A stretch of 33,782 bases of DNA from Anaerolineae bacterium (GTDB lineage: Bacteria > Chloroflexota > Anaerolineae > Aggregatilineales > Phototrophicaceae), in assembly GCA_025454725.1 (NCBI GenBank), contig JALONW010000006.1, forward strand, positions 1 through 33,782. The letters are read 5' to 3'. This document shows, one piece after another, positions 2,821-8,802 of this stretch. The notes beneath the pieces are model-generated. The model worked only from the letters and a program-made list of their open reading frames with translations. It made no database searches and was not told where the DNA came from. The translations under genes and the position numbers were made by a program. The stretch's first letter is position 1, and each line of letters starts with the position of its first letter.

Positions 2821-4398
2821 ATGCAGCGCTCCTCTAGGGTCTATCTCAAGAAACCCATCTACACCTTCAGCCTTTTGGCGCTTGCCCTCGCTGTCGCCGT
2901 CCTCGTAGTGGCGACAGAACCCCCAACCCTTTCCGCCCAACCCGGACCGATGGCAACTTGTGGCGCGCAAATCCGCGCAGCCTTAACCACCGCTATCTCC
3001 TACTGCGAAACCCTAGGCCGAAACCAAGCCTGTTACGGCCATACGCTCGGCGCGGTCTCCATGCGAAACGAAGCCGAGCCTTCCCCATGGGTCAACGTCG
3101 GCGATGTCGCCGACCTGACACGCATCCGGGGCGTGAGCCTCAGCCCGATGGACACCCAGACCGGCGATTGGGGCGTCGCGCTGATGGAAGTGCAGGGCAG
3201 CCTCCCCGACACACTGCCCGGCCAAAACGTGACGGTGGTTGCGTTCGGTGATGTCGCTCTCGAAGATACGGTCAATGAAACAGTACGTATTCCCGCCCAA
3301 GTGCTGGCCTCGGCCAATGTGCGCGTCAAGCCGTCTGTGGGGAGTTGGGTGATTGGCGGGCTGGCTGAGGGTGAAGCTGTCACCGTGACCGGGCAAGCCA
3401 CCACCGCCGCTGGCGAGGTCTGGCTTCAGGTCAAATATGACGGCTACCGCACCCGCACCGGCTGGGTTCTAGCGAGTCTGGTCAATGTGGGTGGACAACC
3501 CGTGCCGACCGTCAGCGAAAACTCGCTGGTCTATGGCAACATGCAGGCTTTTTACTTACGGACGGGGCTGGGTGTCCCCCAATGTGCCGAGCTTTCTAGC
3601 AGTGGGGTCATCCTCCAAACCCCGGAAGACGCTGGCCTCGTCAGCATCAACATCAACGGCGTTGACCTATCGCTGGGGTCTACGGCCTTCATCAGCCTGT
3701 CTGGTACCGGGGCAAGCAGCACTCTCGACATCACGCTGCTCGAAGGCCACAGCTTGGTCGAATCGATGGGCGAGGAACGAGTACTCATACCCGGCAGCCG
3801 CACCTCAGTTACGCTTGACCCCTCCGGCCACGCGGCGGGTTCTCCCAGCGAAGCGGTCGATTATCAACCGCTGGCGATGGAACCCTATAACGACCTGCTC
3901 CGCGACCTGAGCGTCGAACTGCCCGCCCCGGCTGGCGACTTTAATGACGAGTGGGACAGCGACATTAACGGTGATTTTGGTGAGGCCGTTGGCTATGGTA
4001 CGGGTGTCAATCGACCGGGAACACAACCCAACCCGCCCGGAGCAAATCCACCGCTGCCGGGGTCAAATGGCGCGCCTCAAGAGTGGAATGAAAATGCAAG
4101 CTGCGACAATCCCCCACCCGCACATGCACCTGCCAACGGTTGGCGTCAGCGCTGCGAAAACAGCGGAGGCGGTGACAACGGGGGTAATAATGGTGGCGGA
4201 AACGGCAACGGTGGCAACACCAATGGAAACGGCAACGGCAATGGGAACGAAAATGGCAACGGCGGCGGAAACGATAATGGAAATGGCGGTGGTAATGGAA
4301 ACGGTAACGGCAATGGCGGTGGAAACGGCAATGGGAACGGTAACGGAAATGGCGGTGGAAATGGGAACGGTAACGGAAATGGCAAAGGTGGCAATTGA
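2821..4398 (+). CDS. Exported protein with SH3-like domain, FecR-like region and Gly/Asn-rich repeat tail
   Basis: Hydrophobic N-terminal signal. SH3-like: VLASANVRVKPSVGSWVIGGLAEGEAVTVTGQ...GWVLASLV. FecR-like: LGSTAFISLSG...ITLLEGHSLV..GEERVLIPGSRTSVTLD. C-terminal (G/N)n tail. Confidence 0.8.
   Translation: MQRSSRVYLKKPIYTFSLLALALAVAVLVVATEPPTLSAQPGPMATCGAQIRAALTTAISYCETLGRNQACYGHTLGAVSMRNEAEPSPWVNVGDVADLTRIRGVSLSPMDTQTGDWGVALMEVQGSLPDTLPGQNVTVVAFGDVALEDTVNETVRIPAQVLASANVRVKPSVGSWVIGGLAEGEAVTVTGQATTAAGEVWLQVKYDGYRTRTGWVLASLVNVGGQPVPTVSENSLVYGNMQAFYLRTGLGVPQCAELSSSGVILQTPEDAGLVSININGVDLSLGSTAFISLSGTGASSTLDITLLEGHSLVESMGEERVLIPGSRTSVTLDPSGHAAGSPSEAVDYQPLAMEPYNDLLRDLSVELPAPAGDFNDEWDSDINGDFGEAVGYGTGVNRPGTQPNPPGANPPLPGSNGAPQEWNENASCDNPPPAHAPANGWRQRCENSGGGDNGGNNGGGNGNGGNTNGNGNGNGNENGNGGGNDNGNGGGNGNGNGNGGGNGNGNGNGNGGGNGNGNGNGKGGN
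4162..4395 (+). repeat. In-frame low-complexity Gly/Asn-coding repeat tract
   Basis: GGN/AAY codon repeats. The 24-nt unit aatgggaacggtaacggaaatggc occurs at 4330-4353 and 4360-4383. Confidence 0.9.
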
Positions 4399-5118: not shown

Positions 5119-5884
5119 CTATCCACCCGTGAGCGCCAAGAACAGCGTCCGCAAGCTAAGCAGGGTTAAAATAACGCCGACCGCGCCCATCAGCTTCTTG
5201 ACCGGCAGACGGTTGGCAATCAGGGCGGCAATCGGCGCGGCAGGAACCCCGCCGAGGATTAGACCCACAACAGCGGTGGTGACCCACAACAGCGGTGGTG
5301 TCGAACTCATGCAGCAGGACGAAGAAGGCCGCCGCCTGTACGACGGTCACGAACCACTCGGCCACACTGGATGAACCGACCACCCGGCGCGGCATCCGCG
5401 TGCCTTTTGCCATCATTGTCCCGGTGACAATCGGCCCCCACCCGCCGCCGCCAATGGCATCAAAGAAGCCGCCAATGCCGCCGACTGCCTCTTTCTGGAT
5501 GAACGCGAGGTTCAGCCCCGCGCCCCAAATCGCTTTGGTAACAAGCAGCAGTCCCAACCCCAGCAAATAGACCGCCACCAACGGTTTAATAATCTCAATC
5601 GGCAGCCATGTCAGCACCAGCACGCCCAAGACCGCGCCGAACATGCCGGGTATCATCAGGCTGAGGGTCAGCTTCTTATGGACGTTGCCCAACCGCCAAT
5701 GCGAGAACCCACCCGCCGCGCTGGTGAAGATGCCCGCCATGTGGACGGTCGCGCTGGCGACGACGGGCGAAATCCCCGTGCTGAGGAGGAAGGTCGTCGA
5801 GCTGACCTTGTAGCCCATGCCGAGGCTGCCATCGACCAACTGGGCGAAGAACCCCACCAAGATGTAGATGAGCAGTGGCTCCAT
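5119..5884 (-). pseudogene. Sulfite exporter TauE/SafE family permease, frameshifted by a 19-bp tandem duplication
   Basis: ORF 5156-5884 reads MEPLLIYILVGFFAQLVDGSLGMGYKVSSTTFLLSTGISP...LLHEFDTTAVVG. The remainder (LILGGVPAAPIAALIANRLPVKKLMGAVGVILTLLSLRTLF) is in the frame of ORF 5119-5310. Removing one 19-bp copy restores a 249-codon ORF. Confidence 0.85.
5262..5299. repeat. Perfect 19-bp tandem duplication (gacccacaacagcggtggt x2)
   Basis: Copies at 5262-5280 and 5281-5299. Confidence 0.97.
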
Positions 5885-5975: not shown

Positions 5976-6010
5976 AAAAAAGCGGGGCAACCGTTATGGT
6001 CGCCCCGCTT
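5976..6010 (-). terminator. Intrinsic terminator of the minus-strand ncRNA
   Basis: Minus strand AAGCGGGGC-(13 nt)-GCCCCGCTT followed by T tract (plus-strand AAAAAA 5976-5981). Confidence 0.8.
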
Positions 6011-6019
6011 GTCAGCATC

Positions 6020-6200
6020 ATTAGACCCCCCGCGATGCCGTGTGCCACTCTGTTTGAACCTGCTGTCGCAGGTGGGAAGCCTTGCCGCTACGTCTGTCTT
6101 GACCAACGCGGGTCTATCACAGCCGCAACATGCAATCCGGCCTCCCGTGATGTGGGTGTTGGCCCAAACGCGATATGACATCACGTACATCGCAGGTTAC
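6020..6200 (-). ncRNA. ssrS: Structured ncRNA gene, candidate 6S RNA
   Basis: Promoter at 6206-6234. Closing stem CCTGCGATG (6196-6188) with CATCGCGGG (6037-6029). Internal arm GGCCAAC/GTTGGTC, ATCAC/GTGAT, GCCG/CGGC. 3'-side hairpin ACCTGC-GACA-GCAGGT followed by TTCAAAC. Terminator downstream. About 180 nt and no supported ORF. The 6S assignment rests on size, architecture and partial resemblance to 6S sequences. Confidence 0.6.
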
Positions 6201-6205
6201 GGCAA

Positions 6206-6234
6206 ATTCTAGCAGAGTCGTCCCTCACCCACAA
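6206..6234 (-). promoter_or_regulatory. Sigma70-type promoter of the ncRNA
   Basis: Minus strand TTGTGG (6234-6229), 17-nt spacer, TAGAAT (6211-6206); predicted start near 6200-6198, next to the closing stem. Confidence 0.65.
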
Positions 6235-6286
6235 GGTGAAATACGGTTAAGACTGTGCAACATCTGCCACCAGTAGGACGAAAACC

Positions 6287-6897
6287 CTACCCAGCTTTGA
6301 ACAGCTCCGCCAGCGGAAGCGAAAACCCGGCCAGCACGTCCTCGCCGGTCAGAGAGGCGTCATCGGCCAACCGCTGCGAGGTCTGGTCAGGGTAATGGAC
6401 GCTGACCGCCTTTCCCTGCACATCAACCACCCACACCAGTCGCACGCCGTCGGATAAGTACAGCGCCACCTTCTTCATCACGTCGGCATATATATCGGTC
6501 GGGGAAATCACTTCAATCACAAGGTCGGGATAACCGCAAAAGGATAGCCCGGCCTATCGGGTTTATTGGCTTTATAACGGTCGATTTTGTCCTGTGAGAC
6601 CACCATAACATCTGGGATACGCGAACCCGTCACCCAGTTGGAGTCGGCGCGGTCAGGTAGGATGAAGGTCGCTTCTTTGTAAACGCGCCCAAACGGGTGT
6701 GCTTTAAGGTAATCGTACAGCGCGTCGTACATGAGCTGGGACAGTTCGATGTGGTCATAACCGTTGGGAGTCTTATAGACCTTCTCCCCGTCTAACAGCT
6801 CATAAGGGCGCTCGTCTGTGTCCGCGATAAACTCGTCCAGCGGCATCCCCACGCGGGCGGGCGCATCAATCATCATGGCGGCCTGCCCTTTCCTCAA
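6287..6897 (-). pseudogene. Uma2 family (DUF820) nuclease-like protein, frameshifted
   Basis: N-terminal ORF 6517-6897 ([23 protein letters not shown]...GSRIPDVMVVSQDK...GYPFAVIPTL*) and C-terminal ORF 6287-6520 (VIEVISPTDIYADVMKKVALYLSDGVRLVWVVD). One extra G in the GGG at 6527-6529 would give ...AVIPDLVIEVISPTD.... Confidence 0.75.
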
Positions 6898-7061
6898 CTT
6901 GCTTGGTCAGAGTTTTTGTATTATACCCCCAAACAACCCCACCCAATCCTCGCTCAAAACAATCTCCCCGTGGGCGGATAGGCGCGTCCGTGCTATGCTT
7001 TCCGGCGGATTATCCACCGACAACCGTCCTCTCATCCAGCATAAACGGAAGCTGCGTCCCC

Positions 7062-8802
7062 ATGCACAAAACACACACCTGCGGAGAACTGCGCGAATCA
7101 CACGTCGGCCAGACGGTGACACTGGCGGGCTGGGTTAACCGCCGCCGCGACCAAGGCGGCCTCATCTTCCTCGACCTGCGCGACCGCTGGGGTCTGGTGC
7201 AGGTCGTGGTGGACGAAGCCGAAAACCCGACCGCCCACGCCGTCGCGCACACCGTCCGCAGCGAATACGTCTTACAAATCACAGGAACGGTGCGCCGCCG
7301 CCCCGAAGGCACCGAAAACAGCGAGCTTGCCACTGGCGACATCGACATCGTGGCCGACAGTATCATTTTGCTCAACGAGTCGAAGCTGACGCCGTTTCTC
7401 ATCAACCGCGAAGAAAACATCGACGAGGCGCGACGGATGCAGTATCGCTACCTCGACCTGCGCCGCCCGGCCATGCGCGATAACATCATCCTGCGCCACC
7501 GGACGATCAAGTTCCTGCGCGACTACCTCGACACCGCCGAATTTCTCGAAATCGAGACGCCGATCTTGTTCAAGACCACGCCGGAAGGCGCGCGCGACTT
7601 CCTCGTGCCGTCGCGCCTTCAGCCCGGCAAATTCTACGCCCTGCCCCAGTCACCTCAGCAGCTCAAGCAGCTTCTGATGCATGGAACTCAGCTTCGTCGA
7701 GCGCGAAGACATGCTCCAGTTCATGGAAGAAATGGTGCTGGCGCTGGCGAAAGCGGTCGTCCCGCACAAGACGCTGAAATATCAGCCGCTGCGCCGCCTG
7801 ACCTACACCGAAGCGATGGAAAAATACGGCAGCGACAAGCCCGATCTGCGCTACGACCTCGAAGCGGTGGACGTGACCGAGTTGGCCGGTCAGTCGGCCT
7901 TCCCCATCTTCCAGCAGGCGGTCGAGGCCGGTAAGCCGGTCAAGGTGCTGCGCGCGCCCGGCCTGCACACCAAGCGCGATAACCCATCTGAGCTGGTGAC
8001 CGGTGAAGGTCTCAAGCGCCTGATGAAGGAACTTGAAGACCTCGTTAAAACCGTCGGCGCAAAGGGATTGGCCTACATGGCGCTCCCGCTGGACGAGTCC
8101 GGCGAGGTCAAGGGGCCGATTGGCAAATACTTCACCGTCGAGCAAAAATTGGCGCTGTTCGAGCAGACCGGCGCACAGCCCGGCGATATTTTGATGTTCA
8201 TCAGCGACAAAACCGAGGTGGTTTACGCCAGCGTCGATAAGCTGCGCCGCCACGTCGCGGACATGCTCGGCCTCGCTGACCCGAACGTGTTGGATTTCGC
8301 GTGGATCATCGACTTCCCCATGTTCTATTGGGACGAAGAAAATAAGCGCTGGGACCCGTCGCAGCATATGTTCACCATGCCCATGCCCGAAGACATCGCG
8401 ATGCTGGACACCGACCCCGGCAAGGTGCGCGGCAGCCAATATGACCTCATCTGCAACGGCTACGAAATCGGCGGCGGCAGCATCCGCATCCATGAGCGTG
8501 CGCTGCAAGAGAAAATTTTCCCGCTGATTGGTCAGACCATGGAACATGCCCGCGAGCAGTTCGGCCACATGCTGGAGGCGTTCGAGTACGGCGCGCCCCC
8601 GCACGGCGGCATGGCGTGGGGCATCGACCGCTTAGCGATGATTTTCGCGGGCGCGCCCAACATCCGCGAGGTGATCGCCTTCCCCAAGACGCAGAACGGC
8701 GGTGACGCGATGGCGCACGCGCCGTCTGAGCCGGAGCCGCAGCAGCTCAAGGACCTATACATCCAAGTCCTACCCGTTCCCAAGAAAAACGAAGAGGCAT
8801 AA
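7062..8802 (+). pseudogene. aspS: Aspartyl-tRNA synthetase with internal frame-shifting deletion of motif 2 (gene disrupted in this sequence)
   Basis: Frame 1 reads [33 protein letters not shown]...[16 protein letters not shown], then switches near 7679 to [19 protein letters not shown]...[27 protein letters not shown]. The conserved block equivalent to E. coli [31 protein letters not shown] is absent. Confidence 0.9.

Follow-up and report, generated by a model that had tools for sequence, protein, structure and literature searches.

The question raised by this locus is whether the minus strand between positions 5976 and 6234 of the window (the whole 33,782-nucleotide stretch of contig JALONW010000006.1 that was analysed) carries a complete, stand-alone RNA gene and, if so, to which family the RNA belongs. 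The initial annotation had proposed 6S RNA with some reservation and had called for a search with cmscan against RF00013 and a check of covariation in relatives. 6S RNA, a well-known small RNA, mimics an open promoter and thereby blocks RNA polymerase. The family call turned out to be right: cmscan over the whole window returned a match to RF00013 (6S/SsrS) at 6201-6023 on the minus strand, with 64.6 bits against a gathering cut-off of 46.4 bits and an E value of 9.3e-11, and the match was positive along the entire model (positions 1-187 of 187). No other Rfam family scored above its cut-off in the window. A lineage model, R1, built from 40 6S sequences of the order, gave 132.4 bits for the same feature (6023..6201, minus strand), a score to which the window sequence contributed as a member of the training set. 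The matched length of 179 nt lies inside the published size range of 6S genes, 153-237 bp with an average of 183 (PMC7726162). Judged by its sequence, the single 6S RNA gene of this uncultured Chloroflexota (an Anaerolineae-type MAG) is an ordinary member of the family.

The fold of the RNA agrees with this assignment. A 183-nt stretch folds at -83.2 kcal/mol, compared with a mean of -63.6 kcal/mol for shuffled sequences (z = -4.55), and none of 200 shuffles was as stable. Alignment of 40 sequences with MAFFT and prediction of a consensus structure with RNAalifold gave 43 pairs, 23 of which show change on both sides, and standard pairs occupied 94.5% of the consensus-structure cells; when the partners were slid by one column, pairing fell to 42-44%. 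Cells with a double change numbered 166, versus 54 (sd 8) in shuffles, where pairs were counted on the alignment from which the consensus structure had been derived and the shuffle control leaves shared ancestry in place. The homologues thus covary in the 6S structure, and the covariation supports a shape composed of closing stem, central region and interrupted terminal arm. The 9-bp closing stem put forward in the initial annotation, CCTGCGATG (6196-6188) with CATCGCGGG (6037-6029) on the minus strand, is present and conserved, and forms part of an extended stem whose 5' arm (6182..6196, minus strand; alignment columns 6-20) and 3' arm (6029..6042, minus strand; columns 174-187) are paired in 98.8% of cells. 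Likewise recovered was the small GACA-loop hairpin followed by TTCAA; CCTGC-GACA-GCAGG (6059..6072, minus strand) flanks the central region on its 3' side, as expected for a 6S RNA, and is paired in 96.5% of cells, being so nearly invariant that it shows little covariation of its own. The pairings suggested for the long irregular arm (GGCCAAC/GTTGGTC, ATCAC/GTGAT and GCCG/CGGC) had to be given up: across the 40 sequences only 54% of their cells are paired, against 94.5% for the consensus structure.

The GGCCAAC segment is instead part of the 6S central region, with its GGCC inside GTTTGGGCC (6161..6169, minus strand), the 5' strand, which pairs with GGTTCAAAC (6052..6060, minus strand), the 3' strand. 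This pairing is found in 97.8% of cells, includes four pairs with change on both sides, and is also contained in the Rfam consensus. One might read the resulting 9-bp helix as largely shutting the central region in this order and, because both structures would claim the same two G residues, as competing with the 3'-side hairpin, such that a lineage-specific switch would control the release of the polymerase; we consider this unlikely, and since the same pairing already stands in the Rfam consensus, it would be a variation at most. Within the 5' strand of the region, 55 of 56 copies carry the motif CCAAC, which aligns with the start of the pRNA of B. subtilis 6S-1, 5'-GUUCGGUCAAAACUA (PMC12005410). 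On account of this near-invariant motif, a pRNA 5'-GUUGGCCCAAACGC (6158..6171, plus strand) is predicted, with this strand as its template; the commonest predicted form in the order is GUUGGCUCAAAAC.

A promoter precedes the RNA, with TTGTGG as -35 element (6229..6234, minus strand), a 17-nt spacer and TAGAAT as -10 element (6206..6211, minus strand), all exactly as proposed at the outset and placed as in the relatives. Just upstream of their 6S RNAs, the latter mostly carry TTTACA, a spacer of 17-18 nt and an extended -10 element such as TGGTATAA; the -10 place itself is occupied by TGNTATAA in most relatives, and two genomes of the same genus have TTGCCG/TTGTTG at the -35 place. At least nine of the twelve sigma-70 consensus positions are matched in 86% of copies, versus 3% of shuffles. 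The promoter in the window, with 8/12 matches, is weaker than that of most relatives, which explains why a generic promoter scan misses it. At the other end, an intrinsic terminator (5976..6010, minus strand) consists of AAGCGGGGCGACC-ATAAC-GGTTGCCCCGCTT and a T run (T6); its 13-bp stem has no mismatch, encloses a 5-nt loop and is worth -25.6 kcal/mol. Terminator-like hairpins follow the 6S RNA in 39 of 55 copies, where 1.7 would be expected. Promoter and terminator patterns alike are thus found in matching positions in the relatives, much more often than in shuffles. A generic scan for terminators passed over this one; the likely cause is that two Ts are bound up in its stem. Two weak Rfam matches overlapping the terminator, Thr_leader and P31, lie far below the cut-off and were discarded.

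With promoter, 6S RNA and terminator all in place, the minus-strand transcription unit is indeed complete. Its anticipated length of about 180 nt holds for the 6S part (179 nt), but not for the primary transcript; the T run ends ≈ 45 nt past the 3' end of the 6S RNA, and therefore a primary transcript of ≈ 224 nt with 3' trimming is to be expected. These dimensions bear on the relationship to Ms1, a structurally 6S-like RNA whose partner is the core RNA polymerase, sigma being absent. It has the same rod interrupted by a central bubble (PMC9130861), and binding to core or to holoenzyme would be indistinguishable from sequence. However, Ms1 measures ≈ 300 nt, has extra hairpins at its 5' and 3' ends and has been described from Actinobacteria (PMC9130861), whereas the RNA in the window, at 179 nt (≈ 224 nt from promoter to terminator), matches RF00013 and no other Rfam family above cut-off. 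An Ms1-like RNA is consequently regarded as extremely improbable, and 6S RNA is retained as the identity of the transcript.

Rfam 6S matches were obtained in 56 of 61 sampled genomes of the order, the source genome included, 51 of them above cut-off. R1 recovered two of the five genomes without an Rfam match (G044 and G055); their RNAs scored 59.8 and 47.4 bits with the lineage model only and are below the Rfam cut-off. Phylum-wide, 44 of 201 sampled genomes gave an Rfam 6S match, and detection by Rfam is thus patchy outside the class. In a contig collection, a pattern derived from the 6S RNA retrieved 42 loci; methionine aminopeptidase, used as a query of the same collection, found no relative. 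As 6S RNA in Chloroflexi has been reported before (mentioned in PMC7726162 with reference to Wehner et al. 2014), the biology is not new; what the locus adds, for a group known largely from metagenomes, is a well-supported 6S RNA together with its predicted pRNA and an alignment spanning the order.

The gene neighbourhood was surveyed by all-against-all BLAST of the flanking reading frames from 56 loci, with families assigned by Pfam on a single locus (L029). An aspS-like frame lies upstream of the 6S RNA on the same strand in ≈ 25 of the 56 loci, a convergent LytR-CpsA-Psr (LCP) gene lies downstream in 30 of the 56, and many relatives keep the order aspS-6S-LCP. At 6023-8802 of the window, the 6S RNA is found on the 5' side of aspS; the two genes diverge and are separated by a Uma2-family gene, and the closest LCP gene of the source genome is on another contig. 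Either the region has been rearranged locally or it was misassembled. The aspS frame itself is broken at 7660-7700, where about 30 codons are missing (residues 77-106 of the fragment of a relative, including FRDEDLRGDRQPEFTQLD) and the frame changes. An intact second aspS was not found in the assembly; given the essentiality expected of aspS, the break is probably an assembly error. Two more genes, TauE/SafE-like and Uma2 (5119-5884, 6287-6897), also look frameshifted or split, and three broken frames within ≈ 3 kb suggest local sequence errors. Elsewhere in the window, 2821-4398 encodes an SH3-domain protein whose C-terminal tail is of low complexity and rich in Gly and Asn.

Could the 6S RNA be a decayed or silent copy left behind by a local rearrangement? 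Its position outside the order kept in many relatives and the broken aspS, Uma2 and TauE frames around it would fit a pseudogene. Against this, the helices of the 6S RNA and its terminator are intact, as is the position of the promoter, the broken neighbours look like assembly or sequencing errors, and the Rfam 6S search of the assembly gave one match only, with no second copy found across it. Decay or silencing of the gene is accordingly judged very unlikely.

With its observed family membership, conservation, covariation and conserved promoter and terminator positions, the locus is best explained, at a probability of roughly 0.97, as a stand-alone 6S RNA gene whose product likely binds the holoenzyme and is released by pRNA synthesis. 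The gene would be transcribed from its own promoter to its own terminator, and the RNA would fold into a rod whose central region imitates an open promoter. As growth slows, it would most likely bind the housekeeping sigma-RNA polymerase holoenzyme; when nutrients return, the polymerase may copy a short pRNA (predicted 5'-GUUGGCCCAAACGC) from the 5' strand, upon which the 6S RNA would be released. Polymerase binding, pRNA synthesis and the growth-phase role we infer from the 6S RNAs of E. coli and B. subtilis, on which the work on holoenzyme binding and pRNA release is summarised in PMC9130861.

Compared with 6S/SsrS (RF00013) in general, the RNA shares the full-length covariance match, the size, the closing stem, the central region, the 3'-side hairpin, and a promoter and terminator of its own. 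In many Proteobacteria, ygfA adjoins the 6S gene; the gene in the window is without an adjoining ygfA, and in this order the 6S gene often stands beside aspS. As to B. subtilis 6S-1, the commonest predicted pRNA of the order, GUUGGCUCAAAAC, resembles the published GUUCGGUCAAAACUA. B. subtilis carries two 6S paralogues, in contrast to the one copy in the source genome. Finally, Ms1 of Actinobacteria is likewise rod-like with a central bubble and binds RNA polymerase, but is longer, bears extra terminal hairpins and binds the core enzyme (PMC9130861).
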